A DNA stretch of 43,368 nucleotides from Elusimicrobiota bacterium (lineage in GTDB: Bacteria > Elusimicrobiota > Elusimicrobia > UBA1565 > UBA9628): NCBI GenBank assembly GCA_003151975.1, contig PLZD01000068.1:77286-120653 (forward strand). The letters run 5' to 3'. This document shows positions 14,238 through 38,162 of this stretch, piece by piece. The position numbers and the translations under genes are program-made. Numbering within the stretch: the first letter of the stretch is position 1; each line of letters begins with the position of its first letter. The notes below the pieces were generated by a model. It saw only the letters and a list, made by a program, of their open reading frames with translations. It was not told the origin of the DNA and made no database searches.

Positions 14238-15065
14238 TTATCCGAAACGGCCCGTGATATAGTCCTCGGTCCGCTTGTCCGAAGGCTTCGTGAAGATCTG
14301 CTGAGTCTGCGTGAATTCGACGAGTTCGCCGGTCAGCATGAAGGCCGTGTAGTCGGAGACGCGCGCGGCCTGCTGCATGTTGTGGGTGACGATGATGATC
14401 GTCAGATTGTTCTTGAGCCCTAGCATGAGTTCCTCGATGCGCGCGGTGGCGATGGGGTCGAGCGCCGAGCACGGCTCGTCCATCAGCAGCACGCGAGGCT
14501 CGACGGCCAGGGCTCGGGCGATGCAAAGTCTTTGCTGCTGGCCGCCGGAAAGGCTCATCCCGGGCTGACGGAGTTTGTCCTTCACCTCGTCCCACAGCGC
14601 CGCTTTGCGAAGGCTGTCTTCCACTCGCTCCGCTATCAGCGGGCGGTTGCGCGCGCCGTTGAGGACCAATCCGGAAGCCACGTTGTCGAAGATGCTCATC
14701 GAAGGGAAAGGGTTGGGGCGCTGAAAGACCATGCCGACATGCCGGCGCAGCTCGACGGGATCGAGAGCAAGGATGCTCTTTCCTTCGAGCAAGACCTCGC
14801 CTTCGACGCTCGCTCCCGGGGTGATCTCATGCATCCGGTTGAGGCAGCGGATCATCGTGGACTTTCCGCAGCCCGAGGGGCCGATGATGGCCGTGACCTT
14901 GGTGTCGTAGAACTTGATGTTTACGTCGCGCAGCACGGGCGTGGTGCCGTAGCCGGCCTTGAGGTGCCGGACTTCCAGCGTCACGGCCTGGGAGGCGCCG
15001 CCGGGAGATCCCTGCGGTGAGGAATCAGGGATGTATTGCGGGGGCATGGCGAGCGTTTTTACCAT
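14238..15065 (-). CDS. pstB: Phosphate ABC transporter ATP-binding protein PstB
   Basis: A 275-residue ATPase that powers phosphate import through PstCA. Walker [11 protein letters not shown]-loop VFQRPNPFP, signature [15 protein letters not shown], Walker [14 protein letters not shown] and the H-loop THNMQQA are all present. The ATG at 15065 overlaps the pstA stop as TAATG; a roughly 25-residue non-conserved N-terminal stretch precedes the ABC domain. Length is slightly above the usual 250-260. Part of pstSCAB-phoU. Confidence 0.96.
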
Positions 15066-15913
15066 TAATGCGAGACTCCTGTCGACGGCCTTAGCAGAAG
15101 CCGCGTCCCGGCGTTGACGGCGATCACAAACGCTATCAGGATCAGCGCCGCGGCCCAAGCCTGACGGTGCAGTTCCTCATAGGGCGAGATCGCGTAAGTG
15201 AAGATCGTGTGCGGGAGAGCCGCCATGGGATTCATCCAGCCGTTGTCCCAGAAGGGGTTTCCGAAGGACGTGAACAGCAGGGGCGCGGTTTCGCCGGCGA
15301 TGCGGGTCACGGCCAGCAGGGAACCGGTGACGATGCCGCGGGAGGCCGTGGGAATGACGACGCGCATGACGACCTTCCACTGGGGGACGCCCAGCGCCAG
15401 CGCCGCTTCGCGGATCGTGTGCGGCACTAGCTGCACGAACTCCTCCGTGTTCCGAAGCACGACGGGCACCATGATGATGGCCAAGGCCACGGACCCCGAC
15501 AGGGCGCTGAAATGCTTCAGGGGAATGACGACCAGGACGTACGCGAAAAGTCCCATCACGATCGAGGGGATGCCGGTCAACACATCGGCGGCGTAGCGGA
15601 TGCAGAAACCGGTCTTGTTGTGGCCGTACTCCGACAAGTAGACGCCGCCGAGGACCCCGACGGGAACGCCCATGAGGCTCGCCAATCCCACGATCTTCGC
15701 GGAGCCGACGATCGAGTTGGCGATGCCGCCGCCCGTCTCGCCGATTGGCTTGGGAAGTCGCGTCACGAAGGCCCAATTGATGGAGGACAGGCCCCGGTAG
15801 CTGATGTAGCCGAGGACGAAGAACAAGGTCGAGAGCGAGGCTAAGGCGCAAAGCGCCGTGAGCGCGAACATGAGCCGGTTGACGATCTTGCGCCGCATGG
15901 AGTAGCCGCCCAT
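15065..15913 (-). CDS. pstA: Phosphate ABC transporter permease PstA
   Basis: A 282-residue inner-membrane permease with six membrane helices and the BPD_transp_1 fold. The EAA-like loop [29 protein letters not shown] contacts PstB. The ATG at 15913 overlaps the end of pstC by one base; a second Met at residue 6 is an alternative. It forms the heterodimeric channel with PstC. Confidence 0.95.
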
Positions 15914-16893
15914 CAGGCCGCCGCTCCCCGCCGCGTGACGCGGTAGATCATGAGCCGCGCGAGTCCGTTGATGACCACCGTGATGGCGAACAATGTGAGT
16001 CCGATGGCGATCAGGGAACTCAAGTGGAGATCTCCGACCGCCTCGGTCAGCTCGTTGGCGATGACCGCGGCCATGCTGTAAGACGGATCAAGCAGAGACC
16101 ACGAGATCTTGGGTGTGTTTCCGATGACCATCGTGACGGCCATCGTCTCGCCGAGCGCCCGGCCGAGCGACAGGAAAACCGCCCCCGCGATGCCGGAGCG
16201 CGCGTAGGGCAGGCTGACGCCGACGACCGTCTCCCAGTGCGTGGCGCCCAAAGCGAGCATGGCTTCCTTCAAGGAACGCGGCACCGCGAGCAGGACCTCG
16301 CGCGTGATCACGGTGATGAACGGCAGGATCATGATGGACAGGATGAGTCCGGCCGTCAGAAGGCCCACTCCGTAAGGAACGCCCCGAAAGAGCGGCAGGA
16401 ATCCCAGGAATTTAGTCAGCGTGGGCTCGACGGAGCGGACCGCCGGCACGAGCAGGAATATGCCCATGAGGCCGAGGATCACCGACGGCACGGCCGCCAG
16501 GAGTTCGATGAGGAAAGTGCACGCATCGGAAACCCGGCGCGGCGCCAACTCGGCGAGGAAAATGGCCGAGCCGACGCCTAGCGGGATGGCGATGAGAAGC
16601 GCGAGCGCCGATGACACCAGGGTCCCGTAAATGAAAGGAAGGGCTCCGAACTTCTCCGCGACCGGATCCCAATCGCTCTTCCAGAGAAACGGCGCGCCGA
16701 GCTTGGTCCAGGTGAGTTGCGAGCCTACCGCGAGCTGCAAGCCGACCATCACGGCCAGCGCGATGATCATCCAGCCGAAGCCCGCCACGAACCACCGAAA
16801 CGCGCGGTCACCGGCCCGCTCACGAAGGCCGGTGACGCGCTTGCTCCTGGAATCTATCCGCTCTTCAGCGGCCGTTCTTTGAACTGCCGGCAT
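15913..16893 (-). CDS. pstC: Phosphate ABC transporter permease PstC
   Basis: A 326-residue permease with a cytosolic N-terminal stretch of about 30 residues, then six membrane helices. The EAA loop is KEAMLALGATHWETVVGVSLPYARSGIAGA, and the conserved periplasmic FLVPAVRSVEPTLTK region is present. The start at 16893 overlaps the pstS coding end by 29 nt; a later start is possible, since the first 20 residues are not conserved. No separate promoter is needed. Confidence 0.95.
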   Translation of the reverse strand: MPAVQRTAAEERIDSRSKRVTGLRERAGDRAFRWFVAGFGWMIIALAVMVGLQLAVGSQLTWTKLGAPFLWKSDWDPVAEKFGALPFIYGTLVSSALALLIAIPLGVGSAIFLAELAPRRVSDACTFLIELLAAVPSVILGLMGIFLLVPAVRSVEPTLTKFLGFLPLFRGVPYGVGLLTAGLILSIMILPFITVITREVLLAVPRSLKEAMLALGATHWETVVGVSLPYARSGIAGAVFLSLGRALGETMAVTMVIGNTPKISWSLLDPSYSMAAVIANELTEAVGDLHLSSLIAIGLTLFAITVVINGLARLMIYRVTRRGAAA

Positions 16894-17905
16894 TTTCGCC
16901 CGCGCTGATGGTCTTGATGGTCTTCTTGACCATCAACCTCACGTTCTCGGGAAGCGGCGCGTAGCTGAGGTCCTTCGTCATGCCTTGGCCCTTATCGACC
17001 ATCCAGTTTAGGAAGTCCTTGATGATCCGGCCCTTCTCGGCGGTGTTGTTCTCGTACACCAAGAGCCAAGTGAAGCTCGAGATGGGGTAGGCCTTCTCGC
17101 CTGGAGCGTCCGTGATGGACACGCGGTAATCGGCCGGGATCTTCGCCTTGGCGGCCGCAGCACTCACGCCCTCGAGATCCGCCTTAAGGAATTTGCCGGC
17201 CTGGTTTTTGACGGAGCCGTAGTTGATCTGGTTCTGCTTCGCGTAGATCAGCTCGACGTAGCCGATGGAGCCGGGGGACTGCTTGACCAAGCCCGCGACG
17301 CCTTCGTTGCCCTTGCCGCCCAAGCCCACGGGCCAGTTGACCGAGGTGGCCTTGCCGACCTTGGTCTCCCACTCCTTGCTAACCTTGGAGAGGTAGTCAA
17401 CCCAAACGTAGGTCGTTCCCGAGCCGTCGGCGCGGTGAACCACGGTGATGGGCGCGTCGGGGAGCTTGACTCCCTTGTTGACCTTGGCGATCTCGGCGTC
17501 GTTCCACTTAGTGATCTTGCCGAGGAAGATGTCGGCGAGAATCGGGCCGGTGAACTTGAGCTCCGCGACGCCCTCGACATTGAATACCGGGACGTCGGCG
17601 CCCAGCACGGTCGGAATGTGCAGGACCTTGCCCTTGACCTTGGAGAGCTGCTCGTCGTTCATCGGACCGTCGGTGGCGCCGAAATCCACGGTGCCTTCGG
17701 TCACCTGGCGGATGCCGCCGCCCGAGCCGATGCTCTGGTAGTTGAACTGGATCTCGGGGTGGATCTTGTGATACTCGTCGAACCACTTCGAGTACATCGG
17801 GTACGGGAAGGTCGCGCCCGCTCCGTTGATGGTGATCGTCTCGGCGGCCAACGGCCCGGCCATCAGGCAGATCGCGGCGAGAAGGCTGGCAGATTTTCTG
17901 ATCAT
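16865..17905 (-). CDS. pstS: Periplasmic phosphate-binding protein PstS
   Basis: A 346-residue solute-binding protein with a signal peptide cleaved after PLAAE (about residue 21). Phosphate-binding segments are visible: GAGATFPYPMYSKW, SIGSGGGIRQVTEGTVDFGATDGP, and RADGSGTTYVW. It captures phosphate and hands it to PstCAB. Transcription is expected to be induced by PhoB, since a Pho box lies 10 nt upstream of a -10 element (17946-17979). The leader is about 34 nt with a GAGAGGA ribosome-binding site, unlike the leaderless genes around it. Confidence 0.96.
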   Translation of the reverse strand: MIRKSASLLAAICLMAGPLAAETITINGAGATFPYPMYSKWFDEYHKIHPEIQFNYQSIGSGGGIRQVTEGTVDFGATDGPMNDEQLSKVKGKVLHIPTVLGADVPVFNVEGVAELKFTGPILADIFLGKITKWNDAEIAKVNKGVKLPDAPITVVHRADGSGTTYVWVDYLSKVSKEWETKVGKATSVNWPVGLGGKGNEGVAGLVKQSPGSIGYVELIYAKQNQINYGSVKNQAGKFLKADLEGVSAAAAKAKIPADYRVSITDAPGEKAYPISSFTWLLVYENNTAEKGRIIKDFLNWMVDKGQGMTKDLSYAPLPENVRLMVKKTIKTISAGENAGSSKNGR

Positions 17906-17945: not shown

Positions 17946-17979
17946 AGTCTAACGAGATCGGGTGACAGCGGCGTGACAA
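17946..17979 (-). promoter_or_regulatory. Pho box and -10 element of the pst operon
   Basis: On the minus strand: TTGTCAC-4 nt-CTGTCAC (17979-17962), direct repeats with 11-bp period, matching the PhoB consensus CTGTCAT-N4-CTGTCAT. After 10 nt comes TAGACT (17951-17946). This spacing is the canonical one for PhoB-activated promoters lacking a -35. Confidence 0.85.
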
Positions 17980-17989
17980 CGGGGTCAAT

Positions 17990-18043: not shown

Positions 18044-19492
18044 TTAGAACAAGAAGAACGACGTCAACTGGACGCGGTTGTTGGTCGCGAACCGGTTGTT
18101 GGGGTCGTTGTAGGTCGAGCGCGTCTGATTACATTCGACGGCGAAGCGCAGCCAGTTCAGCGGATCGTACTGGGCCGAGGCGTAGCCGAACTGGATCTTC
18201 GGCGAGATCGCGGCCCATTGGGCGATGGTATTGCCGTTGGTGCCGATCGTGCCGGGGGCGGCGAAGCGGTCCAAGTTGCGGCCCTCGACCTGCGCGTAGC
18301 CGCTGGAGACGGCGAACTTGCCGCCGGGCAGGGCGTACTGCAAGTTGTAGCGCCAGGAGCGCACGCGCACGAGCTCCGCGCTGCCGGCGAGGTTCAAGCC
18401 CACCATCCCCGAGTCCGGGACCGGGGTGTTGGTGATCGCCGCGTTGGTCTTGGTGGCGATGCTGGGCGCGCCGAGGTTGAGGCCCGCGAGCTCCAGGCCA
18501 CCCACTCCGCTGCCGCTCATGAGCTCGCCGATGGCGATGAGGGTGTTGGAGCGGTCTACCCCATCCTTGGAGGGGATGATCGGCACGGCGATGTCGATCG
18601 CGTACGCTTCGCCGACCGGATTTCCGATGCCGGCGGTCTGAATGGGGATGATCGCGCCGCTCAAACCCACCGAGAGGCCGACCATGGTGGTGCCGGCGCC
18701 GCCGAGCGAGGCCGCCTTGTACTTGGTCGAGGCCAAGCGCACGCCGCCGTGGAACTCGGGCGAGCCGCCGGTCATCTCCGGGGGCCGGGCCGCGTCGGCC
18801 GCGGTTTCCAGCGTCCAATCCTTGCCGAAGGTGTCGGTGCGCGTCACGCGGGCCTGGACGAAGCGCCGGTAAAGCTGGCCGACGGCCGGCATGATGACGT
18901 TTTCGCCGGGGAAGTAGTAGGGCTGCCAGCCGAGGAGCGACCAGTATTGGCCGGTCTTGGCGTTCCACTCGTTGTAGGTCAGGTTGAGGTAGGCATGGCG
19001 CACGCGCACGGCCGGGTTGTTGAAGAAGTCGCGCTCGCTCTGCGCGCCGGGCGTGGTGCCGGGCTGGGTGTTGGGCGCGTTATTGCCCAGGAAGTCGAGC
19101 TCGATGACGCCTTCCGTGGCCAGACCGAAATCGGTCTTGGGCAAAGTCAAGTCGAAGCCGAGCCGGCTGTTGCGGACGCTCATCTGGCTGCGGCCGTGTT
19201 CGCCGGTGTAGTTGTGCACGCCGGTGGGTTGGATCGAAGTCGTGCCGTCCGGGTTGGCGCCGATAGCCTTGCTGGCCGTCTGATGCATCGGAACGTTGAC
19301 GTTGTCCTGCTCTTCGTTGAAGCCGGCGGTCGTGTCGGAGATGAAGTCCGTTTCCACGAATCCGTAAATGCGGAGGTTCAGATCTTTGATCTTGCTGACG
19401 GTCACGTTGACGCCCTCGGCGGCGAAGGTGGATGTCGTCAGTCCGAGAACGGCGATGAGGCTGATGAGAAGTCGGCGGTAGGTGGATTTCAT
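18044..19492 (-). CDS. Outer-membrane beta-barrel porin, Pho-regulated
   Basis: A 482-residue protein with a signal peptide (cleavage after STFAAE, about residue 24) and alternating beta-strand pattern throughout; it ends in SFFLF with a C-terminal Phe, the usual barrel-assembly signal. The opening LNLRIYGFVETDFISDT resembles DcaP-like trimeric porins rather than OprP. A Pho box lies upstream with the same geometry as at the giant fusion gene, and the gene sits between pst and phoR, so a role in outer-membrane uptake of phosphate or organophosphates is likely by inference. No ribosome-binding site is visible; ATAACT ends 7 nt before the ATG. An intrinsic terminator follows. Confidence 0.82.
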   Translation of the reverse strand: MKSTYRRLLISLIAVLGLTTSTFAAEGVNVTVSKIKDLNLRIYGFVETDFISDTTAGFNEEQDNVNVPMHQTASKAIGANPDGTTSIQPTGVHNYTGEHGRSQMSVRNSRLGFDLTLPKTDFGLATEGVIELDFLGNNAPNTQPGTTPGAQSERDFFNNPAVRVRHAYLNLTYNEWNAKTGQYWSLLGWQPYYFPGENVIMPAVGQLYRRFVQARVTRTDTFGKDWTLETAADAARPPEMTGGSPEFHGGVRLASTKYKAASLGGAGTTMVGLSVGLSGAIIPIQTAGIGNPVGEAYAIDIAVPIIPSKDGVDRSNTLIAIGELMSGSGVGGLELAGLNLGAPSIATKTNAAITNTPVPDSGMVGLNLAGSAELVRVRSWRYNLQYALPGGKFAVSSGYAQVEGRNLDRFAAPGTIGTNGNTIAQWAAISPKIQFGYASAQYDPLNWLRFAVECNQTRSTYNDPNNRFATNNRVQLTSFFLF

Positions 19493-19499
19493 GCTGAGA

Positions 19500-19566
19500 A
19501 GTTATGAAATCTACATCATGCCCGCAATGCCATTGGGGCAATCCGTGGATGACACGGCGGTGACAG
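19500..19566 (-). promoter_or_regulatory. Pho box array and -10 of the porin gene
   Basis: Minus strand CTGTCAC-4 nt-GTGTCAT (19566-19549), with a further in-phase degenerate unit ATGGCAT at 19533-19527. ATAACT (19505-19500) begins 61 bp from the first box base, the same distance as at the gene starting at 38089. Confidence 0.7.
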
Positions 19567-19578
19567 GCCGTCGGGGGA

Positions 19579-20835
19579 TCAGAGCGGCAGCTTGAAGCGG
19601 AAGATCGAGCCTTCGCCCAGCCGGCTCTTAACCTCGATGGCGCCGCCGTGGGCTTCCACGATGTGCTTGGCGATCGAAAGCCCGAGGCCCGTGCCGCCCA
19701 GCTCGCGCGCGCGCGCCTTGTCGACGCGGTAGAAGCGCTCGAAGACGCGCGGCAGGTCGGCCTCGGGGATGCCTTGCCCCGTGTCCTCGACGGAGACGAC
19801 CAAATGTCCGCCTTCGACCGTGGCCGACACCGTGACCGAGCCCTCATCCCGATTGAACTTCACGGCGTTGTCCATGAGATTGGCGAGGACCTGCTTGAGC
19901 TGCGGTCGGTCGGCGCGGACCTTGGGTAGGGTGGGGTTTTCCTTTATAATGAGCTTGACGCGATTGCGATCGGCCAAAACCTTGAGGCTCGCCGCCGCCT
20001 CGGAAGCGAGTTCTAGGAGAGAAAGCGCCTCGAGCACCGGCTTGCGGTGGCCCGACTCGATCGCGGAGAGATCGAGCAAATCCTCCACCAAGGCCGAGAG
20101 GCGCTGGGCGTCCTTCTCGATCGTTTCGATGAACTCCATGCGGTTCTCTACGTCGTTGATCGCCCCGTCCCTTAGGGTTTCAGCGAAACCTCGGATGGAC
20201 GCCAACGGGGTGCGCAGCTCGTGCGAGACGTTGGCCACGAACTCGCGCCGCACTTTCTCGAGCGCGCGCATGCGCGTGATGTCGTGCAGGACGAGCAGAG
20301 CGCCGGCGCGCACGCGGTCTTGGATCAGCGGCACGGCGTGCGACTCGAAGACGCGCTCCTCGGGGGTCACCAGCGCCACTTCCTCGACGCGGCTGACGCC
20401 GTCCTTGAGCACGTGGCTCAAGAGCTCGTTGAGCCGCGCGTGTCGCAAGGTCGCCACGAAAGGCCGGTCGAGCGCCTCGCGCGGGTTGATCGAAAACAGC
20501 GCGCAGAGCGCGGGGTTGAGCGCGATGATGCGGCCCTCGCCGTCGACGGCGACGACCGCCTCGACGATGTTGGCCAGGATCGCCGAGAGTTGGGCCTTGT
20601 CGCTGGAGAGCTCGGAGACCGTCGCCTCGATGCGGTCGGCGAGAGCGTTGATCGTCTCGCCGAGCTTGCCGTACTCGTGCTCGGGCAGGTCGCGTACGCG
20701 GGCGCGGTAGTCGCCCTGCGAGAGCCGGCGCGCGACCTCGGTCAACTCGTCGACGCCTTTTGTGAGCAGGCGCCAGACGCTGAGCGTCGCGGCGAGCGCG
20801 ATGAGCAGGACGACGATCGCGATCGCAGGCAGCAC
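19579..20835 (-). CDS. phoR: Phosphate sensor histidine kinase PhoR
   Basis: A 418-residue kinase with one N-terminal membrane helix (residues 3-24), a HAMP-like segment, a PAS domain (about 80-190), the HisKA dimerisation helix with FVANVSHELRTPL (His205) and a HATPase domain with NLMDNAVKFN, EDTGQGIP and GTGLGLSIAK. Lack of a large periplasmic sensor is typical of PhoR, which reads phosphate status through PstB/PhoU. It starts at a GTG 1 nt after the phoB stop. Located in the sixA-phoB-phoR operon next to the porin and pst. Confidence 0.94.
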   Translation of the reverse strand: MLPAIAIVVLLIALAATLSVWRLLTKGVDELTEVARRLSQGDYRARVRDLPEHEYGKLGETINALADRIEATVSELSSDKAQLSAILANIVEAVVAVDGEGRIIALNPALCALFSINPREALDRPFVATLRHARLNELLSHVLKDGVSRVEEVALVTPEERVFESHAVPLIQDRVRAGALLVLHDITRMRALEKVRREFVANVSHELRTPLASIRGFAETLRDGAINDVENRMEFIETIEKDAQRLSALVEDLLDLSAIESGHRKPVLEALSLLELASEAAASLKVLADRNRVKLIIKENPTLPKVRADRPQLKQVLANLMDNAVKFNRDEGSVTVSATVEGGHLVVSVEDTGQGIPEADLPRVFERFYRVDKARARELGGTGLGLSIAKHIVEAHGGAIEVKSRLGEGSIFRFKLPL

Positions 20836-20836
20836 T

Positions 20837-21520
20837 CTAATCCAGCTTGAGCCTGTAGCCGACGTTCTTGACGGTCACGATCCGGCCGGCCTCCGAACCG
20901 AGTTTTTCCCGGAGGCGCGCGATGTGCTGATCGACGGTGCGCGTGTCGATCTCCATCGACTTGTCGTAGCCCCAGACTTTTTCGAGCAGTTCGTCACGGG
21001 TGAGCACCTTGCCGCGCGCCGAGAAAAGGCATTTGAGAAACTCGAACTCCTTGGAGCGCAAAGTGAAGGGCTTGCCGTTGAGGCGCGACTCGTATTTCTC
21101 GAGATCGAGTTCCAGGCCGCCCGCTCGGAGAACGGCATTTGGCGTCTCCGACCCGGAGACGCGCCGCAAGATCGCCTTGATGCGCGCGAGCACCTCTCGC
21201 ACGCTGAAGGGCTTGGTGACGTAGTCGTCGGCCCCCATTTCCAATCCGAGTATCCGGTCCACTTCTTCCTTGCGGGCCGTGAGGATCAGAATGGGGGTCT
21301 TGGAGTCCTGGCGCACGATCTTGCAGAACTCGTAGCCGTCGAGCTTAGGCAGCATCAAGTCAAGAATGACCAAGGAAGGCTTTTCCTTGCGGAATGCGGC
21401 AAGTCCGGCCTCGCCGTCGTTGCAGACGATGGTCCGGTAGCCCTCTTTTTCTAAATTGTATTTAAGGAGCTTCGAAAGGCTTTTCTCGTCTTCGACGACC
21501 AGGATCTTCTCGTTGTTCAT
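20837..21520 (-). CDS. phoB: Phosphate response regulator PhoB
   Basis: A 227-residue OmpR-family regulator. The receiver has VVEDE (acidic pocket), Asp54 in VILDLMLP as the phosphorylation site, and Lys in KPF; the C-terminal winged helix (residues 130-227) includes LTRDELLEKVWGYDKSMEIDTRTVDQHIARLREKLG-type recognition elements. It should bind the Pho boxes seen at 17962, 19549 and 38145. AGGAAAGGA just before the ATG is the ribosome-binding site. Tight linkage with phoR and the phosphate genes makes PhoB the best name. Confidence 0.94.
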   Translation of the reverse strand: MNNEKILVVEDEKSLSKLLKYNLEKEGYRTIVCNDGEAGLAAFRKEKPSLVILDLMLPKLDGYEFCKIVRQDSKTPILILTARKEEVDRILGLEMGADDYVTKPFSVREVLARIKAILRRVSGSETPNAVLRAGGLELDLEKYESRLNGKPFTLRSKEFEFLKCLFSARGKVLTRDELLEKVWGYDKSMEIDTRTVDQHIARLREKLGSEAGRIVTVKNVGYRLKLD

Positions 21521-22153: not shown

Positions 22154-24313
22154 GTGATAAAATCGCATACGGTGCCGATTCCCCCAGAAAAAGTCAGCAA
22201 GTGGCGTCCTTTCCCGCCGGTCGCCGGCGATGTGGGGCCCGCTCCCGCTGCCTCGACGGCCGCGCCGGCCATCGCCAAGTTCCTCAACCGGGATCTGAGC
22301 TGGCTTAAGTTCAACGACCGCGTGCTGGCCGAGGCCGCAGACCCTCGGGTGCCCGCGCTCGAGCGCCTGCGCTTCTGCACGATCGTCAGCTCGAACCTCG
22401 ACGAGTTCTTCATGGTCCGCGTGGCCGAAATCGCTCGCCTGGCCCGCCGCACGCCGCTGAGAAGATTTCCCGACGGCTTGACCGCGGCCAAGGCCCTGGC
22501 CCAAATCCGGGAGCAGGTCATCGGCCAGAAGGCCAGGCAAGCCACCGTGCTCGACGACATCTTCGCGGCGCTGGAAGGAGAGGGCATCAGGATTCACGCT
22601 GACTTCCATGGCAACGCCCGGCTCGACCGCGAGGTCAAGACGCGCCTGCCGGAGATCAAGTACGTGCTGCGCAAGTCGACCGAGCTGGCTCCCCGCAGCC
22701 TCATGAGCGAGCGCATCCACGTTTTCGTGCGGTTCCCCGGCGAATACGCTATCCTGACGATCCAGGACCGCGAGTCGCGGCTGCTCGAACTGCCGCGCAA
22801 AGGATCGCACCGCCGTTTCGCGCTGATCGAGCGGTGGCTCGCCGAGCGCGCCGAGGTTTTCTTTCCAGATCGGGAGGTCATCGAGGCTTTTCCCTTCAAG
22901 ATCATCCGCGAGGCCGACCTGCGCTACCGGCCCGACGATGAGGAGTCGCTCGAGAACCAGATCGCCGAAGCCGTGCACGGGCGCCTGCGCGCCAAGGTCG
23001 TGCGCCTCGAGGTCGACGCGCCGTCCTATTCCGAGGGAGCGCTTTATCTGGCCGCCTCGCTGGGCCTCGATTCGGCCGGGCTCTACCGCTTCGACCTGCC
23101 GCTCGACCTGCGCACGCTGGCCAACATCTATCACGTGCGCGGCGCCAAGTCCCTGCGCTACGCGCCGGTCGAGCCGCAGGTGCCGCCGCCGCTGGCCGAT
23201 ACGCGCCGCATCTTCGACACGATCCGCGAGCACGACATCCTTTTGCACCATCCCTACGACTCGTTCGATTCCGTCGTCGCGTTCCTCTCCCGCGCCGCGC
23301 GCGATCCCAATGTGACGCGCATCTACCACACGATGTACCGCACGAGCCGACAATCCCCGATCATGGAGGCGCTCAAGGAAGCCGTGCGCCAGGGCAAGAA
23401 GGTTACCGCCTACGTGGAGATCAAGGCGCGCTTCGACGAGCTCAACAACCTGCGCTGGGCCCAGGACCTGCGCCAGGCGGGCGTGCGCGTCGTGCAGCCG
23501 ATGGGCGGCTTCAAGGTGCACAGCAAGGTGACGCAGATTTTCCGCAAAGAGGGGGAAACCGAAGTCTCCTACGTTCACCTCGGCACGGGCAACTACCACC
23601 CGAGCACGGCTTTGCAGTACACGGACCTCGGCCTGCTGACGGCCAACCTCGCGATTTCCGCGGAGGTCTCGGCGTATTTCACCGCCTTGAGACGCCAAGG
23701 CGCGAGCGCCAAATTTCGCGAGCTGCTGGTGGCGCCGCGCAACCTCCACAGCGAGACCCTCCGGCTCGTGAAGGAAGAGACGCGCATACAGAAAGCGGGC
23801 GGGCGCGGCCACATCATCGCGAAGATGAACGCCCTCGTCGACACCGACCTCATCGAGGCGCTCTATGAGGCCTCTCGCGCGGGCGTGAAGGTCGACTTGC
23901 TCGTGCGCGGCATCTGCTGCCTGCGCCCCGGCATCAAGGGCTTGAGCGAGAACATCCGCGTCGTCTCGGTCGTGGATCGGTTTCTGGAACACAGCCGGAT
24001 CTATTATTTCCGCGCCGGCGGCGTCGACAAGGTCTATCTCTCCAGCGCCGACTGGATGCCGCGCAACTTCTACACGCGCTTCGAGATCGCGTTTCCGATT
24101 AAGGATACCGTTCTGCGCCACTTCATCCGCGACGTCATCCTGGAAGGAGGCCTCTCGGACACCGTCAAGGCGTGGAGCCTTAAGCCGGACGGGACCTACG
24201 AGCGCGTCGTTCCCGGGAAATCGGGCCGCGTCGTGCGCTCGCAGGAGATGTTCCAGGCCTTGGCCCTGGACCACTACCGCGGCACGATCCTCGAGTACCG
24301 CATACCGCTCTGA
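22154..24313 (+). CDS. ppk: Polyphosphate kinase 1
   Basis: A 719-residue PPK1 that makes inorganic polyphosphate from ATP. The N-terminal domain begins FLNRDLSWLKFNDRVLAEA; the catalytic phospholipase-D-like domains hold KVHSKVTQIF (His456, the phosphorylated His by position) and YLSSADWMPRNFYTRFE. Length is typical (about 690-720). I use GTG 22154; another GTG at 22172 is possible because the first 40 residues are not conserved and no ribosome-binding site is seen. The next gene overlaps the stop as TGATG. Being divergent from sixA-phoBR, it links storage of phosphate to its sensing. Confidence 0.96.
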   Translation: MIKSHTVPIPPEKVSKWRPFPPVAGDVGPAPAASTAAPAIAKFLNRDLSWLKFNDRVLAEAADPRVPALERLRFCTIVSSNLDEFFMVRVAEIARLARRTPLRRFPDGLTAAKALAQIREQVIGQKARQATVLDDIFAALEGEGIRIHADFHGNARLDREVKTRLPEIKYVLRKSTELAPRSLMSERIHVFVRFPGEYAILTIQDRESRLLELPRKGSHRRFALIERWLAERAEVFFPDREVIEAFPFKIIREADLRYRPDDEESLENQIAEAVHGRLRAKVVRLEVDAPSYSEGALYLAASLGLDSAGLYRFDLPLDLRTLANIYHVRGAKSLRYAPVEPQVPPPLADTRRIFDTIREHDILLHHPYDSFDSVVAFLSRAARDPNVTRIYHTMYRTSRQSPIMEALKEAVRQGKKVTAYVEIKARFDELNNLRWAQDLRQAGVRVVQPMGGFKVHSKVTQIFRKEGETEVSYVHLGTGNYHPSTALQYTDLGLLTANLAISAEVSAYFTALRRQGASAKFRELLVAPRNLHSETLRLVKEETRIQKAGGRGHIIAKMNALVDTDLIEALYEASRAGVKVDLLVRGICCLRPGIKGLSENIRVVSVVDRFLEHSRIYYFRAGGVDKVYLSSADWMPRNFYTRFEIAFPIKDTVLRHFIRDVILEGGLSDTVKAWSLKPDGTYERVVPGKSGRVVRSQEMFQALALDHYRGTILEYRIPL

Positions 24314-30652: not shown

Positions 30653-31462
30653 CTAACGGCGGGACTTCTTGCGGCTTGAGAGCTTCAGGAAACAGCTCGC
30701 GCAGCGGTGGTATTTATCGAGGCGCTCGGGCCGCAGATCGAATTCCTTGGAGAGCGCCTTGTCGAACTTTAGAAGCTCGGGAATGTGCTCGATCTTCGCT
30801 TCGAGCCCCTCGCCCTCGGTCTTGACCTCGTTTTCGTACTCCCAAAACGTCGAGACCGTGTGTATGCCCGACTGGGTCACGTGGAAGGCGAAGATGTGGT
30901 CGAGCGAGGGCTCGAGGAAGGCCGAGCCGAGGTCAACAATGAATTTGTCCTTCTCGTAGGCGCAGAGGATCGGGCCGCGGCTGATGCGCGCGATGACGCC
31001 GATCGTGAGGTGGCGCTGCATGGCGTGGGCCATCTCTGGCGAGACGTGCTCCTCGAGGATCTCGCGCACGGAAGTGTCGGTGAAGTGTACGACGTCGTGG
31101 TGGCTTTCCTCGCGCACGAGATGCGCGAGCTTCTCCGACGAGAATTCCGAGCGATAGAGGAGCCCGTTCTTCAAGAAGCCGGGGCCTTTGTATTGAAGGT
31201 AGACGTTGGAGCCGTCTCCTTTATAGCGCAGGCGCAGGCTCGCGCCGAGCTTGAGCAGGCGCAGGTCGGGCGTGTCGAGGTATTGGTCGTAGAAGGTGAC
31301 GCGCTTGTCGTGCTGGACCTTCTTGAGTTTGAGCAGGTGCTTGCGCAGGTCCTTGGCTTCTTCGGGGACGACCTTGCGCTTGGACTCGATCTCCACGAAC
31401 CGCGGATCGGTGGTCTCGAGCTTGCGGCAAATGGACCAGACCTCGGCGGTTCCCTTGCTCAT
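30653..31462 (-). CDS. CYTH/triphosphate-tunnel-like domain protein
   Basis: A 269-residue soluble protein. The ExExK signature of the CYTH superfamily is seen as EIESK (residues 24-28), followed by VTFYDQYLDTPDLRLLKLGASLRLRYKG, with the YxDT and LRxR elements of the tunnel. Triphosphate-tunnel enzymes hydrolyse inorganic triphosphate or thiamine triphosphate, make polyphosphate (VTC4) or make cAMP. The C-terminus has Cys residues (CASCFLKLSS). In an operon with two phosphoesterases and under a putative Pho box, a role in (poly)phosphate handling is plausible. No membrane segment. Confidence 0.72.
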   Translation of the reverse strand: MSKGTAEVWSICRKLETTDPRFVEIESKRKVVPEEAKDLRKHLLKLKKVQHDKRVTFYDQYLDTPDLRLLKLGASLRLRYKGDGSNVYLQYKGPGFLKNGLLYRSEFSSEKLAHLVREESHHDVVHFTDTSVREILEEHVSPEMAHAMQRHLTIGVIARISRGPILCAYEKDKFIVDLGSAFLEPSLDHIFAFHVTQSGIHTVSTFWEYENEVKTEGEGLEAKIEHIPELLKFDKALSKEFDLRPERLDKYHRCASCFLKLSSRKKSRR

Positions 31463-31483
31463 TTCTCTATGATCGCAAAATCG

Positions 31484-32509
31484 TCACGGCTTGTCGATGC
31501 GGTAGCTGTCGCGCACGACGCCGTTGTCGTCCACAAAATCCAGCGCCATGTTCTTCGACGATAGCTTAACGAGGACCAGACCAAAGCTGATCAACTCTTT
31601 CTCGAGCCACGGATGGTCCTCGGGCCCCGGCATTATGTTGCCGCCGCCCGTGCCGGCCGTGACGTAAAGGACCTTGTTCATGCGCTTGGAGCGCTGATAA
31701 AGATGGTCGTGGCCCGCGAAGACGACGTCGACGTGGTGCTTCTCGAAGAGGCCCTGCAGGGAGGCGCGCAGTCCCGCGTTGTCGCCGTGGTTGAAGTAGG
31801 TCGAGAACAGCGGCACGTGCATATAGACGAATTTCCAGCGCGCCTTGCTGGCGCCAAGGTCCTTGTCGAGCCACGCGCGCTGGGCGCTGTCGAGGCCGAT
31901 GGGCTCGGCGGCGGCGATGGGCACGGCTCCGTTATCGTCGAGAGAGACGAAGTGGGCCGGCCCCGCGTCGAAGGAGTAATACTTCGGGCGCCGGAAGACG
32001 CGGGCGTAGCCGTCTCGGAAACGCTTCTCGCCGATCGCGGCGGAGGTTTTCGCGTTGCCGTAGTCGTGATTGCCGGGAGCCGGGAAGACCGGCACGCGCG
32101 AGAGCGTCTTGCCGTAGATCTTGAAGTACTTGGCGTCGTAGTCCTGGTCGACGCCCGTGGGATAAACCACGTCGCCGACGAACAACACGAGATCGGTCGC
32201 CGCCTTCTCGAGCACCGCTCCGACTTTCTTCTGGGCGAGCGTGCCCATGCCCGAGTCGCCGAAGACCGCGAAGCGCAGCGGCGCTCCCGCCGCTGGAAGC
32301 GCTCGCGCCGCATATTGGCGCGAGGAAACGGAATACTCGAACTCGGCTCCGGGTGAAAGCCCCGCGAGCGGCAGGCAGGCGTCCTTGCGGCGCTCACGCC
32401 AGCAGACCGTCGCCGCGACGGATGAGGCGTCGACGATGTAGGGTTGACGGTCGCGCGCCGCCGCGATGGAAGAGAATCCCAAAAGGAAAAGCAAAGACGC
32501 TAAGTTCAT
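31484..32509 (-). CDS. Secreted purple-acid-phosphatase-like metallophosphoesterase
   Basis: A 341-residue protein with a signal peptide (cleavage near IAAARD, residue 19). A short N-terminal domain (about 20-75) precedes the calcineurin-like domain: FGDSGMG, VGDVVYPTG, APGNHDYG, YMHVPLF and AGHDHLYQRS supply the metal ligands, the order of purple acid phosphatases. It would release phosphate from organic esters outside the cytoplasm. It starts 18 nt after the MFS gene. AATAAT ends 7 nt before the ATG, so it may also have its own leaderless promoter. Substrate is unknown. Confidence 0.85.
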   Translation of the reverse strand: MNLASLLFLLGFSSIAAARDRQPYIVDASSVAATVCWRERRKDACLPLAGLSPGAEFEYSVSSRQYAARALPAAGAPLRFAVFGDSGMGTLAQKKVGAVLEKAATDLVLFVGDVVYPTGVDQDYDAKYFKIYGKTLSRVPVFPAPGNHDYGNAKTSAAIGEKRFRDGYARVFRRPKYYSFDAGPAHFVSLDDNGAVPIAAAEPIGLDSAQRAWLDKDLGASKARWKFVYMHVPLFSTYFNHGDNAGLRASLQGLFEKHHVDVVFAGHDHLYQRSKRMNKVLYVTAGTGGGNIMPGPEDHPWLEKELISFGLVLVKLSSKNMALDFVDDNGVVRDSYRIDKP

Positions 32510-32527
32510 GCGCAGGATTATTCTAGC

Positions 32528-33739
32528 TTAAGGACGAGCCAGCCGAGCGGACAAGCCGAGCTGTCCCAGCGCCGCGAGAGCCAGTCCCACGCCCACGACC
32601 GCGAAGGCCTGTCGGGGCCCCGCGCCGAGCGCGAAGGCGGCGCCGACCGCGGACTTGAGAATGACGGACACGAGGTTCGAGGAGAACCGCGCCACGGCCG
32701 TCACGCCGCCGGCCGCGCCCAAGGGCGTGGCCTCCTGCAGGCGCGTCGTCATCGCCAAACGCGCGCCGACGTTGGCAAACGAGAAGGCAAACGCCGCCGC
32801 GATCATCGGCCACAACGCCGACGGGATCCAGCCGACGGCCAGGATCAAGGTCCCGAGGGCTCCGGCCGAGATCCAGCGGGTTCCGGGCTTGCGCGCGTAA
32901 GCCAGCGCCCCGATCGCTCCGCCGAGGCCGAACGCCGCGCCGATCCAGGCCGAGGCCGGGTTGCTTCCGAGGATGGATTTGGCGAAGAACGCCGACATGA
33001 GCTTGCGCAGGGGATAGAAGTTGAGAAGCGCGAGGCCGCCGCAGGAGAGAAGCAGCCGCGGGTCGCTCCACGCGAGACGAATTCCCTCGAGAGTGCCGCC
33101 GCCGTGCGCGCGCGGCTTTCTCTCCGTCTTGGGCAACGCCGCGAAGATCAAAGCGGAGGCCATGAAGCCGATAGGCACGATGGCGTGCGCGGCCAAGCTC
33201 TTCTTCGAGAGCATCAGCGCGCCCAGAAGCAGGGGACCGGCCACGGCGCCAAGGTCGAAGGCGAACTCGTAGCGCGCGTTGAGCGCGTCGAGCGCCGCGC
33301 GGTCGTGCTCGGCGAGCTCCAACGGCACCGCGTGGGCCGCGGTGTCAACGAACCCGCGCACGAGCGCGTCGAGCGTGTAGGCCGCCATGGCGCTCATCAA
33401 GGTCAGCCGGCCGAGGGTCCAAAGGAGGGGGATTAAAGAGAGCGACACTCCGCGCAGAAAAGTCGAGAGGATCAGCAGGCGCCGAGAGCCGAGACGGTCC
33501 GCCGGCCAGCCGCCGAGGAGCGAGCCCGTCATGTGCACGGCCGTGTCGAAGGCCGAGAAGAACGCCGCCGTGCCCAGCGAATTCGAGAGCTGGGCGATCA
33601 GCAGGGGCTGGATCAGGTGCAGGGCGTTGTTGACGATCTGCGAGGCCAGCACGCCTGCGGCATATGCGCCCGCTCGAGGGGTGGGTCGCTTCGAGAGCGG
33701 GACGCAAAGAGCAGTGGGGGCTTCCAATGTGGAATTCAA
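32528..33739 (-). CDS. MFS transporter, paralogue of the MFS part of the adjacent fusion protein
   Basis: About 403 residues, eleven to twelve membrane helices, MFS fold. It shares extended similarity with residues about 200-590 of the neighbouring fusion: GVLASQIVNNAL matches GVFAAQVANNAL, YTLDALVRGFVDTA matches YALDALARGVADTA, and ALDALNARYEFAFDLG matches ALDALNSKARAAFNLG. So it arose by tandem duplication. I chose the TTG at 33739, overlapping the previous stop as TTGA; a GTG at 33775 would extend it by 12 residues into the upstream gene. Substrate is unknown. Confidence 0.8.
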   Translation of the reverse strand: MNSTLEAPTALCVPLSKRPTPRAGAYAAGVLASQIVNNALHLIQPLLIAQLSNSLGTAAFFSAFDTAVHMTGSLLGGWPADRLGSRRLLILSTFLRGVSLSLIPLLWTLGRLTLMSAMAAYTLDALVRGFVDTAAHAVPLELAEHDRAALDALNARYEFAFDLGAVAGPLLLGALMLSKKSLAAHAIVPIGFMASALIFAALPKTERKPRAHGGGTLEGIRLAWSDPRLLLSCGGLALLNFYPLRKLMSAFFAKSILGSNPASAWIGAAFGLGGAIGALAYARKPGTRWISAGALGTLILAVGWIPSALWPMIAAAFAFSFANVGARLAMTTRLQEATPLGAAGGVTAVARFSSNLVSVILKSAVGAAFALGAGPRQAFAVVGVGLALAALGQLGLSARLARP

Positions 33740-34410
33740 CTGACGGCTCCAGCGAGATGCATGGGCACGGGCCACTTGTCCTTGCGGCGATAGGCGCGGC
33801 GCGCCTGGACGCTGACGATGCGCCGCTCGGGCAGGATGAGCGCAGAGAGCAGGCCGCCGTAGACGCAGCCGGTGTCGAGGCCGATCGCGTTGTCCTTGAT
33901 GATCGGTTCCGGCTTGGCCCAGTGGCCGAACACCGCCAGCCGCTTCTCCGTGTAGAGCTCGTACCAGGGAGTCTCCAAATCGTCGAGGCGCCGAAGGTTC
34001 GTGAGCCGGCGCGGGCTCTGGTCTTTGATCGGCAGCCTTGGATCGAAACCGGCGTGCACGACGAGCAGGTCCTTGCTCTCGATCGTCAGCGGCCAGGACT
34101 CGATGAAGCGCATGCAGTCCTCGAACCCATCCTCGAGCTGGCGATAAGTTTCCCAGTCGTAGGGCTTCTCATCGGGAAGCAGGCCGAGCCTCCAATGCTC
34201 GAGAAAGCGCAGCTCGTGATTTCCCAGCACGATCTGGAGATTTGTAGTCTCCATCGCCCAATCGAGCACGCCGCGGCTGTCGGGGCCTTTGCAGATCAAG
34301 TCGCCGACGCTGATCAGGCGGTCGTCGGTGTCGGCGCCGACTTCGTCCAGCAAATCCTTGAGCTCGTCCAGGCAGCCGTGCACGTCGCCGATCACGATCG
34401 TTCTATTCAT
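33736..34410 (-). CDS. PPP-family metallophosphatase (ApaH/PrpE-like)
   Basis: A 224-residue protein with IGDVHGCLDEL, VGDLICKGPDS, LGNHELRFLEHW, VVHAGFDP and FGHWA, the full metal-ligand set of the PPP family. Members act as diadenosine tetraphosphate hydrolases or Ser/Thr protein phosphatases; the length and CxxGPDS form fit ApaH/PrpE-like enzymes. The start overlaps the end of the fusion gene by 8 nt, so translation is coupled with it. A link to nucleotide or phosphoprotein turnover in the same pathway is inferred. Confidence 0.85.
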   Translation of the reverse strand: MNRTIVIGDVHGCLDELKDLLDEVGADTDDRLISVGDLICKGPDSRGVLDWAMETTNLQIVLGNHELRFLEHWRLGLLPDEKPYDWETYRQLEDGFEDCMRFIESWPLTIESKDLLVVHAGFDPRLPIKDQSPRRLTNLRRLDDLETPWYELYTEKRLAVFGHWAKPEPIIKDNAIGLDTGCVYGGLLSALILPERRIVSVQARRAYRRKDKWPVPMHLAGAVS

Positions 34411-37400
34411 CGGAGCTCTCGCCTCCCTTGGGTTCGAGCCCGCGCTTGTGCATGTTCTTTATATAGCGGGCGTGCGCCTCCACGATTTCCTCGCGGATGG
34501 TCTCGCCGGCTTTCAAGATGTCCTGGTATTGCTTCTCGAGGGCGGCTTCCAGATTCTCGCGCGTCGCGCCGTCCTTGAGCGAAAGGGCGTGCGCACGGCC
34601 AAGCTGGGTGCCGACCGCGTAAGCGAGATCGCGCTGGTCTTCTTGATCGAGCATCTTCTTGAGCTTCGCGTTCATCGGCGGCAGGGCGCGGATGTAGTAT
34701 TCCTTGCCGTCGAGCGTCGCGAAGCCCGGACGCAGTTCCCAGCCGGGGGCGTAGAGTTCCGCAGCCTCGCGCATGCGCTCGCCGTTGGTCGGGTAAGGGT
34801 TTTTGTACCAGGTCGTGTCGGGGTCGTCGCGGACCTGCTTCATGTTGAGCAAGAGGCGGTCCTTGCCGGACTTCGGGTCGCGCGGGGCGAGCACGACCAG
34901 GATGATGTCGCGGAATCCCATTGAGCCTGCGCCGCGCCCGGCCTCCTCGACGAAATACTCCTTGAGCAGTTCGGGCTCGTTGCGGTTCTGCATGTACCCG
35001 GAAAGCAAGGTCATGATCGCGGGATCGTCGTGGGGCAGCGGATTTTGGCGCATCTCGTGGGCCCACTTCTTGTCGGCCGCAAGATAAGCGTTGGTACTCG
35101 TCTCCTCATTGGAGGGCTCGGCGTCCTTGAGCTTGCGCATTTCCGAGAAAGGTTTCTCCGGGTGGCGCAAGCCGCGCAGGTAGCCCTTCTTGAGCTGGCG
35201 CGAAACCTCGGGGTCGAGGAAGCCGTGCTCTTTCTTCTGGCGCAGGCTCAGCGAGACCATCAGCCGCACGAGGTCCCAGGCGTAGGGCCCAACGCGCGAG
35301 CGGTCGAAGTCGACCATGGCCGCGCCCTCGGCGGTCTTGGCGTAGTTGTCGACATGCGGAGAGCCGTGGAGAAAGACATGGGGCATCGAAGCCATGTCCA
35401 TGAGCTGCGCGAAGCGGTCCTGCATGGCAAGGAGCATGTTGCGGAAGTAGAAGTGCGCGCCCTTCTTCTCGTGCAGGTAGTTCATGCGGATGTTATCCGC
35501 GTCGCCGGCGGGGTCCTTGTCGAAGATGTTCGACGCGGCCTTCTTGCCGTCGTGCTTGGCGTAGGCCGACAGCGGGCCCAGCGCGCGCTGGATCTGCGCG
35601 AAGACGGCGTCGTGCTGAATCTCGCGCGGCTTGGTCGCGTCCATCGCGCGGAAGCCGAACTCGCGCATCTGCGCGTCGTAGGAAGCGACGACCTTGCTCT
35701 GGAAGAGCCGGAAGTTCTCGCGGTCGTCGGTCGAGAAATTCATATCGCGGCCGACGGCGTAGGCGTTTTGGCCGAGCACGCGGTTCTTGGGAGTCTCGTC
35801 GAAGTCCTCGGAGAGGCCCAAGCGCCCCTCGGCGCGGGCCAGCACGCGGCCGATGGCGGTCTCGACAGGCAGCTTAAAGTAGAGCGTGAGATCGGGCTTG
35901 AGCGCGCTGCCGTAGAGCCCGCGCAGCCACTTGGGATCGTTGCCGCGCACGCTGTCGCGGGCGAGCGCCGTGTAGAACCAGCGGTCGGCCAGCACGACGG
36001 CGCCTTCCTCGAGCGCGGGCTTGATGATCTTGTCGACGCGGTCGGCGAAATCGGCGGCGTTGAGCAAGGCGAAGGTGCGCGGAGTCAGGGCTTGGCTTTG
36101 CTTGGCCTTCTTGACCGTCTCGGAGAGCAGCTCGGAGGAGTTCCAGCTCGTCACGACGACCTTGACGCCCTGCGCCTCGAGCTTTTCCTTCAGTAACTCC
36201 ATTTGGGTCGACTTGCCCGAGCCGTCCAATCCCTCGACGACGATCAAGCGTCCCGGCATGCCGTGAACGGCCGACGGTTTGGGAGCGGCCAGCGGCGCCG
36301 TCGCGAGCGCGCCCGCCGCGGCCACGGCCTTCAGACGCGAGGAGGTGAGGAGTTGGGCGACCGCCACGATTCCGACGCCGGCCGCGAGCAAGGCGAACGC
36401 GGCGGCCGGCGAGGCGACCGCCGTGAAGGCCAGGCCCATCGCGAAGCGCGCGAGCATTGAGGTGCCATTCGCCGTGAATCGCAGCACGCTCATGACGCCG
36501 CCCTCGGAGCCGTTCGGTATGCGCTCCTGTATGCTCGAGGTGAGAGCCAAGTTGGCAGTTTCATTTAATGCGGCGAAGGCGAAGATCGCGGCGGCCAGCG
36601 GCCAGAATCCGCCGCTAAAGAGCCCCGCGCCGATAGCCACCGCGCCGACGGCGCCGAGTTTAAGCCAGGTCTGAGTCTTTAAGCGCTCGTGCAGGCGGTT
36701 GTAGGCGACCGAGCCCACCGTGCCGCCGAGGCCGAAGGCTAGCACGAGCCACGCCGAGAGCGCGGTGTTGTGCAGGATCTGGTCGGAGAACGCGGGGGGC
36801 AGCAGCGCGCGCAGGGCCGGCGCGAGCGCGAGGAACACGCTGGTCAGCAACGCCGTGCGCAGCCATTTGTCGGAGACGATTTTCTTGATCGCAGCACCCT
36901 TGTCGGGCGTCGCGGTTTTCTCGGGCGAGGTGAGGGCGATGGGCTTGGGGATGAAATGATAGACGGCCGCGGCCGCGGCAAAGACGCCCGCGACGAGCCA
37001 ATTGCCCGTGTTCGAGAAGGTCTTGAGCGCGAGCAGTCCGACGAGCGCCGGACCGACGATGCCGCCGAGGTTGAAAGCGGCGCGGGCCTTGGAGTTGAGC
37101 GCGTCTAGCGCGGGCTTTTCCTTGCCGACCAAAGCCATCGGCATCGTGTTGCGCGCGGTGTCGGCCACGCCGCGCGCCAGAGCGTCGAGGGCGTAGAGCG
37201 CGATCGCCCAGGGCGCGGTGAGCGCTCCCGCCGCGAGCATGGCGGGGATCGCGATCAAGGCGGCCGCGCGCGCCCAAGTCGAGGCCTTGAGCACGGTCTC
37301 GGGCGAGAAGCGCTGCGTCAGCCAGCCGCTGACCAAGGTCCCGCTCATGTCGAGCGCGGTCGTCAGCGTCGTCGCGAAGCCGATCGTGCCGATGTGCTGG

Positions 37401-38089
37401 CCGAGATGCATGAGGACCAGCGGCAAGGAGACGACGAGAGCGTTGTTGGCGACTTGCGCGGCGAAAACGCCGGTGAGATAAGCCCAGATGCCGCGTTTTG
37501 CGCCGCCGGCTTGCGTCTGCGAGGGCGGGACCGCAGGCTGAGTATTTCCGGTCTCAGGGCGGGAGGGTGAAAGAGACTGCGGGGACTTGTCTCTTGATCC
37601 CGTTTCAACGGGAACCTCCGCGTCATGGGGTGCCGAATCCTTAAGCGTGAAATCGTCGCGGCGGCTGTCGCTTTCGTTTGATCCGGGGTGGTTCGTAATT
37701 TCCCCGGCCAGATCGGCCGTCGCGTGCAGGCGTCCCGCCGCGGTCTCGGGCGCGATGGGCTGCGTCGGAGTTTGAGGCTGGGTTTCCGCTTGGGGGGCGC
37801 CTATATTAAGGAGGCCGATGCGTCCGGCGGCGGCTTCCTGGGAAAGATTGACCGCGGGCGTTCCGGGCAGGACGGGCAAGCCAGTCTCGACGCTTGGTAA
37901 AGTCACGCCGGTTTGAATCTTAAGCGCGGCGTCGGGCAAAGTGTTGAGCCCGAGCCCGGGCTGGGAAAGCTGGACGGGGAGAACGATCTGGCGGATCGGG
38001 CCCTCGGAGATGATGCGGCCCGAGGCTGCCCAGGCGTCTTGCGGAATCACGCTCAGCGTGTAGGCCAGGACCAGGATCAAACGTCGCAT
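34403..38089 (-). CDS. MFS transporter / thymidylate-kinase-like / DUF2252-like triple fusion
   Basis: About 1,228 residues. Parts in order: a signal-like helix (RRLILVLAYTLSVIPQDAWA); a Pro/Gln/Ala-rich linker to about residue 195; an MFS domain (about 198-590); a thymidylate-kinase-like domain (about 615-845) with P-loop EGLDGSGKST and ADRWFYT (DRW for the usual DRY/DRF); and a C-terminal domain (about 870-1220) with FLHGSPHVDNY, MVDFDRS and WDLVRLMVSL, resembling DUF2252, an aminoglycoside-kinase-like fold. The start is the second of two near ATGs, since TACAAT lies 6 nt before it. A Pho-box array lies upstream. Five genes follow with overlaps or gaps up to 21 nt. A cleaved signal peptide before an MFS domain is odd. 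The substrate is unknown; transport coupled to phosphorylation is one idea. Confidence 0.8.
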   Translation of the reverse strand: MRRLILVLAYTLSVIPQDAWAASGRIISEGPIRQIVLPVQLSQPGLGLNTLPDAALKIQTGVTLPSVETGLPVLPGTPAVNLSQEAAAGRIGLLNIGAPQAETQPQTPTQPIAPETAAGRLHATADLAGEITNHPGSNESDSRRDDFTLKDSAPHDAEVPVETGSRDKSPQSLSPSRPETGNTQPAVPPSQTQAGGAKRGIWAYLTGVFAAQVANNALVVSLPLVLMHLGQHIGTIGFATTLTTALDMSGTLVSGWLTQRFSPETVLKASTWARAAALIAIPAMLAAGALTAPWAIALYALDALARGVADTARNTMPMALVGKEKPALDALNSKARAAFNLGGIVGPALVGLLALKTFSNTGNWLVAGVFAAAAAVYHFIPKPIALTSPEKTATPDKGAAIKKIVSDKWLRTALLTSVFLALAPALRALLPPAFSDQILHNTALSAWLVLAFGLGGTVGSVAYNRLHERLKTQTWLKLGAVGAVAIGAGLFSGGFWPLAAAIFAFAALNETANLALTSSIQERIPNGSEGGVMSVLRFTANGTSMLARFAMGLAFTAVASPAAAFALLAAGVGIVAVAQLLTSSRLKAVAAAGALATAPLAAPKPSAVHGMPGRLIVVEGLDGSGKSTQMELLKEKLEAQGVKVVVTSWNSSELLSETVKKAKQSQALTPRTFALLNAADFADRVDKIIKPALEEGAVVLADRWFYTALARDSVRGNDPKWLRGLYGSALKPDLTLYFKLPVETAIGRVLARAEGRLGLSEDFDETPKNRVLGQNAYAVGRDMNFSTDDRENFRLFQSKVVASYDAQMREFGFRAMDATKPREIQHDAVFAQIQRALGPLSAYAKHDGKKAASNIFDKDPAGDADNIRMNYLHEKKGAHFYFRNMLLAMQDRFAQLMDMASMPHVFLHGSPHVDNYAKTAEGAAMVDFDRSRVGPYAWDLVRLMVSLSLRQKKEHGFLDPEVSRQLKKGYLRGLRHPEKPFSEMRKLKDAEPSNEETSTNAYLAADKKWAHEMRQNPLPHDDPAIMTLLSGYMQNRNEPELLKEYFVEEAGRGAGSMGFRDIILVVLAPRDPKSGKDRLLLNMKQVRDDPDTTWYKNPYPTNGERMREAAELYAPGWELRPGFATLDGKEYYIRALPPMNAKLKKMLDQEDQRDLAYAVGTQLGRAHALSLKDGATRENLEAALEKQYQDILKAGETIREEIVEAHARYIKNMHKRGLEPKGGESSDE

Positions 38090-38095
38090 GGCCAT

Positions 38096-38162
38096 ATTGT
38101 AGGGTCCGGGCCTGACAGGGGGATGGGTGGGGCGTCAACGGTGTATGACAGCGGCGTGACAA
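38096..38162 (-). promoter_or_regulatory. Phased Pho-box array and -10 of the fusion-gene operon
   Basis: Minus strand TTGTCAC-4 nt-CTGTCAT (38162-38145). In the same 11-bp phase follow CACCCAT (38129-38123) and CTGTCAG (38118-38112). After exactly 10 nt comes TACAAT (38101-38096), then 6 nt and the ATG. The spacer between the two main units (GCCG) equals that at pstS. Confidence 0.8.

Follow-up and report, generated by a model that had tools for sequence, protein, structure and literature searches.

The window, a stretch of 43,368 nucleotides from a contig of an Elusimicrobiota bacterium, contains a complete set of Pho genes on its minus strand, encoding PhoU, a Pst transporter, PstS, a porin-like protein, a sensor kinase and a PhoB-type response regulator, and, at some distance, a gene for a multidomain fusion protein (Table 1). 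The porin-like protein itself has no Pfam match; a homologue was found in 14 of the 57 genomes searched (its own included), often adjoining pstS. The regulator has the recognition helix RTVDxHIxRLR, as in E. coli PhoB, and a transactivation loop that is two residues longer. As its score of 215.9 falls below the NCBIfam PhoB equivalog cut-off of 296.2, the name PhoB rests on gene context and on the helix. The home genome, from which the window is taken, contains a PhoB/PhoR pair with a matching DNA-recognition helix. No Rfam matches were found in the window. A polyphosphate kinase is located at 22154-24313.

The fusion protein is a single chain of 1230 residues, and homologues with ~51-55% identity are found in seven relatives. 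In three of the genomes searched (G007, G023 and G033), and in a shorter form in a fourth (G034), the fusion gene shares a contig with pstS at a distance of about 9-19 kb. This shared location supports the assignment of the fusion gene, which has no known phosphate role of its own, to a putative Pho regulon. The thymidylate-kinase-like part and the region that follows it have homologues in Verrucomicrobiota, Thermoplasmata and others. Genes on the same strand downstream of the fusion gene (30653-33775) encode a metallophosphatase, a CYTH-domain protein and a further MFS protein, and the cluster as a whole may have a role connected with phosphate or polyphosphate.

Table 1. Genes, PhoB-type units and predicted -10 hexamers in the window (offsets in bp from the first T of the first TGTCAY).
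Feature	Coordinates	Strand	Basis or remark
PhoU	13537-14220	-	
Pst transporter genes	14238-16893	-	
PstS	16865-17905	-	
pstS -10, TAGACT, offset 27	17946..17951	-	good match; offset common to pstS orthologues of the family
pstS promoter PhoB unit 2, TGTCAC	17962..17967	-	pattern match
pstS promoter PhoB unit 1, TGTCAC	17973..17978	-	exact match
pstS promoter weak upstream unit, ATTGAC	17984..17989	-	in phase; pstS orthologues of the family often have units at -22 and -11
Outer-membrane porin-like protein, directly upstream of pstS	18044..19492	-	ORF
Porin predicted -10, TAACTT (61) or ATAACT (60)	19499..19505	-	hexamers of orthologues at 60 or 61
Porin promoter unit 4, TGGCAT	19527..19532	-	array match
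Porin promoter unit 3, GATTGC	19538..19543	-	weak; array match with 2 mismatches
Porin promoter PhoB unit 2, TGTCAT	19549..19554	-	pattern match
Porin promoter PhoB unit 1, TGTCAC	19560..19565	-	pattern match
PhoR/PnpS-type sensor kinase	19579..20835	-	NCBIfam PnpS, above cut-off
PhoB-type response regulator	20837..21520	-	domain scan, recognition helix
Fusion gene	34403..38095	-	secretion-signal-like N-terminus; MFS, thymidylate-kinase-like and APH/DUF2252-like domains
Fusion-gene predicted -10, TACAAT, offset 60	38096..38101	-	good match; spacing class of the order
Fusion promoter unit 5, TGTCAG	38112..38117	-	in phase; other arrays lack conservation here
Fusion promoter unit 4, ACCCAT	38123..38128	-	array match
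Fusion promoter unit 3, GTTGAC	38134..38139	-	exact array match, the only one in the home genome
Fusion promoter PhoB unit 2, TGTCAT	38145..38150	-	pattern match
Fusion promoter PhoB unit 1, TGTCAC	38156..38161	-	pattern match

PhoB-type boxes and their distance to the -10

Upstream of pstS, the porin gene and the fusion gene, the minus strand carries exact TGTCAY-N5-TGTCAY pairs, the tandem 11-bp repeats of TGTCAY type that characterize a Pho regulon promoter. The exact pair occurs six times in the 4.64 Mb home genome and never in the reversed control, and half of these occurrences are the three promoters named. With one mismatch allowed, the genome yields 16 pairs as compared to two for the reversed pattern. 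The other three exact pairs (L004, L005 and L006) were excluded as Pho promoters after inspection: L004 is without a clear gene, and L005 seems to fall in the terminal part of a convergent gene. L006 (1501-1517) is a TGTCAC-N5-TGTCAT pair located downstream of a likely promoter and ahead of the start codon of a gene for a secreted protein; if genuine, it would be well placed for repression. The home genome also has a second pstS copy (L089; G000:C44:13597-14595), which is 66% identical; no PhoB pair with up to two mismatches lies ahead of it.

The two types of spacing are distinct. At pstS, the offset from box to -10 is 27 bp, as in E. coli phoA-type promoters, in which the pair lies over the -35 region; at the fusion promoter it is instead 60, and at the porin promoter 60 or 61. 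An initial sequence-only reading gave these distances as 28, 61 and 61 because it counted from one base before TGTCAY, and its boxes and arithmetic are otherwise correct. Its statement that the last two spacings are exactly identical is uncertain by 1 bp, because the porin -10 is ambiguous. As a hexamer, ATAACT at 19505 is poor; the -10s of relatives point to TAACTT at 19504, with an offset of 61, as the probable element. This 1-bp uncertainty is immaterial, as the spread within the class covers 60-63. The in-phase units that the same reading placed between box and -10 (CACCCAT and CTGTCAG at the fusion promoter, ATGGCAT at the porin promoter) are all present, and a better conserved third unit at the fusion promoter, GTTGAC (38139-38134), had been overlooked.

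The predicted transcription starts of the fusion and porin genes (38089-38101 and 19492-19505) coincide with the start codon or lie only a few bases from it, as in leaderless mRNAs. Because the first ATG of the fusion gene (38095) abuts the -10, translation probably begins at the second ATG (38089). Across the order, ATG or GTG follows the -10 by 5-8 nt in 13 of 33 promoters of the longer spacing.

Spacing and array conservation across the class

In 56 genomes of the order, YGTCAY-N5-YGTCAY followed by an obligatory TANNAT was sought at offsets from 18 to 79. The distribution is bimodal, with 14 sites at 27 (the near type), 33 sites at 60-63 (the far type; 5, 12, 11 and 5) and 0-2 at most other offsets; as the taxa are related, these sites are not fully independent, and part of those listed reflect chance or precede genes without a known phosphate role. 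The reversed-pattern controls gave 3 and 0 matches in total. Tabulated across order and class, the distance from box to -10 thus shows a strong preference, the lack of which would have counted against the sequence-only reading. Sites at 27 are mostly those of pstS; sites at 60-63 stand ahead of many different genes. When 295 genomes of the phylum were scanned, further families of this class also showed the far type, and no convincing example was found outside the class.

A minor peak of seven sites (L260-L266) at 38-39, corresponding to 27 plus one turn, includes the phoB promoter of G043 and several genes without an obvious phosphate role. The offset of 38 at this phoB, taken with an offset of 49 at the fusion gene of G033, suggests whole-turn steps, although the cases are few.

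Alignment of 30 non-redundant far sites reveals conservation outside the search pattern, as NTTKAC at offsets 22-27 and NNNYATGG at offsets 33-40. The far array is thus laid out as YGTCAY, YGTCAY, NTTKAC and NNNYATGG at offsets 0, 11, 22 and 33; no conservation was detected in these sites at units 5 and 6 or in the place of a -35 hexamer. Positions A37 and T38 contain 0.78 and 0.98 bits when sites are aligned on the box, as compared to 0.41 and 0.57 bits when they are aligned on the -10. The sharper signal in box register indicates that units 3 and 4 belong to the array. The upstream anchor with weaker units toward the -10, as envisaged in the sequence-only reading, agrees with a strong pair followed by two conserved in-register units; its continuation further downstream does not, as the array ends at unit 4.

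When the array was sought without the -10 as a criterion, the 235 genomes of the class yielded 25 sites, and reversed-pattern controls yielded none. TA...T is found at 60-63 downstream of 23 of these. After removal of redundancy, 19 of 22 arrays retain it, as compared to a mean of 1.15 and a maximum of 6 over 5000 shuffles. In the home family, a scan allowing one mismatch gave 47 arrays among the matches listed and no control matches. In the home genome, with up to two mismatches (and one control match), the fusion and porin promoters are the only array matches, which makes them its members of the far class.

The genes behind far arrays or far-spaced pairs are Pho regulon content. One representative per family was domain-scanned and the rest were assigned by evident similarity. 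These genes encode PhoB (G034, G035, G038 and G042), DUF47/PhoU_div proteins (G004, G012, G035 and G037), a PHO4 (PiT) phosphate transporter (G053), porins of the Porin_O_P (OprO/P-type) and Porin_5 families, and PstS in other families (G218 and G035), as well as the home genome's fusion protein and, in G001, its N-terminal relative.

These data also qualify the proposal that the far promoters are displaced by 33 bp, or three repeats. This is correct for the strongest pair, which is the element closest to the -10 in pstS arrays and the most distant in far arrays. Home-family pstS arrays, however, often contain extra units at -22 and -11 from the strong pair, and so also comprise about four units. 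If the last unit is taken as the reference, the -10 follows at 16 bp in near arrays and at 27-30 bp in far ones, so that the two types differ by about one turn with 0-3 bp added. The array edge is displaced by one turn rather than three, since many pstS arrays continue upstream of the strong pair. Offset 27 is found mainly at pstS of the home family, whereas pstS of other families uses the far layout; the far layout therefore looks like the general form in the class and 27 like a local one, as judged from these comparisons.

A proposed four-protomer array upstream of the -35 region

Taken together, these observations suggest that the class shares a far type of Pho promoter, with the porin and fusion promoters as members, and that in this type an array of four PhoB protomers would lie upstream of the -35 region; we assign this reading a probability of roughly 0.6. 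The protomers would bind head to tail on the 11-bp units at offsets 0, 11, 22 and 33. The strong upstream units 1 and 2 may nucleate binding, and the weaker NTTKAC and NNNYATGG units would then extend the array to the upstream edge of the -35 region. With the -10 T set at -12, the array would span about -73 to -35. As far promoters have no -35 hexamer, the fourth protomer most likely recruits RNA polymerase from just upstream, via sigma region 4 and/or the alpha C-terminal domain. In the near type at pstS, the strong pair itself would overlap the -35 region. Counting against this reading, the spread of far spacing over 60-63 requires a polymerase contact less rigid than that at 27. It is about an even call whether such an array, ending short of the -35, is the standard Pho promoter of the class and represents a second conserved mode of activation, with looser spacing at 60-63 and helical-turn steps at 27, 38, occasionally 49, and 60.

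An unlikely alternative is a class I-like arrangement, in which only the strong pair is bound and touches the alpha C-terminal domain, with units 3 and 4 being remnants or bent DNA. Class I CRP sites lie near -62 (-61.5), and class I promoters normally keep a -35 hexamer. With the -10 T at -12 and an offset of 60-61, the strong pair is likewise centred near -62, and the lack of conservation at unit 5 and at the -35 hexamer would fit an activator bound only upstream. The missing hexamer is nevertheless the element that such a promoter should have, and conservation of units 3 and 4 in box register extends across families. A distinctly improbable possibility is that a second factor, or an alternative sigma factor, recognizes TTKAC/YATGG and works with PhoB at the pair: YATGG diverges from YGTCAY, and its trailing GG is foreign to the PhoB box. 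Against this, the units hold an exact 11-bp phase with the boxes whatever the distance to the -10, the final AT of TGTCAT persists in unit 4, and unit 3 is similar to the Streptomyces unit GTTCACC (PMC4415409). That two promoters share 60-61 by accident, with noise between box and -10, is scarcely credible. Two promoters alone, one with a poorly defined -10, would be weak evidence, but the class-wide spacing peak with near-zero controls refutes chance.

The four-protomer reading is also compatible with the graded response raised in the sequence-only reading, a tentative and rather doubtful addition in which pstS and the far promoters would fill at different levels of phosphorylated PhoB. The strong units of the far class are those most distant from the -10, and ArcA repeats are filled in a concentration-dependent order (PMC3798270). 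However, phoB, PiT and even pstS of other families use the far layout, and the layout is thus not a simple divide between early and late genes.

Comparison with known Pho promoters and repeat arrays

Among activators that substitute for the -35 contact, PhoB serves as the model. For comparison, the phoA, pstS, phoB and phn regions of E. coli were read. E. coli phoA has 11-bp TGTCAY repeats, no -35 hexamer and a -10 at 27, and the pstS promoter of the window matches this arrangement; in the porin and fusion promoters, the pair is instead 33 bp further upstream, with two weaker units between. The closest precedent is E. coli pstS, where a pair at 0/11, a degenerate TTACAT at 22 and units at 33/44 form a similar ladder and the upstream pair stands 33 bp above the canonical pair. 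Its downstream pair (TGTCAC, TGTCCT) is strong, whereas no second strong pair occupies the canonical position in far arrays: unit 4 is degenerate and retains only YAT, unit 5 is lost as a conserved element, and TGTCAG occurs at that position in the fusion promoter only.

Extended arrays are known from related regulators. Streptomyces PhoP binds 11-nt direct repeat units of differing quality in simple and complex operators, with a GTTCACC unit like far-array unit 3; the text describes no fixed 60-63 distance to the -10 (PMC4415409). E. coli ArcA, of the OmpR/PhoB family, binds a core pair accompanied by 1-3 additional repeats spaced at 11 or 22 bp, and part of these are occupied only as its concentration rises (PMC3798270). 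The position of ArcA sites relative to the start is variable, whereas that of far arrays is nearly fixed. Together, the PhoP and ArcA cases mark extended repeat arrays as a habit of this family.

No Pho promoter spacing classes of this kind were found in the open-access literature; an earlier description elsewhere is possible. The class-conserved far layout, without a strong pair over the -35 region, appears to be new. Its motif can be used to predict the phosphate regulon in this class, and the arrays offer many natural promoters in which to study the access of the last protomer to polymerase. A strict distance from pho box to core promoter has been taken as a requirement of structural models (PMC10294691); the conserved far layout, displaced upstream by 33 bp, suggests that this rule admits at least one other solution.
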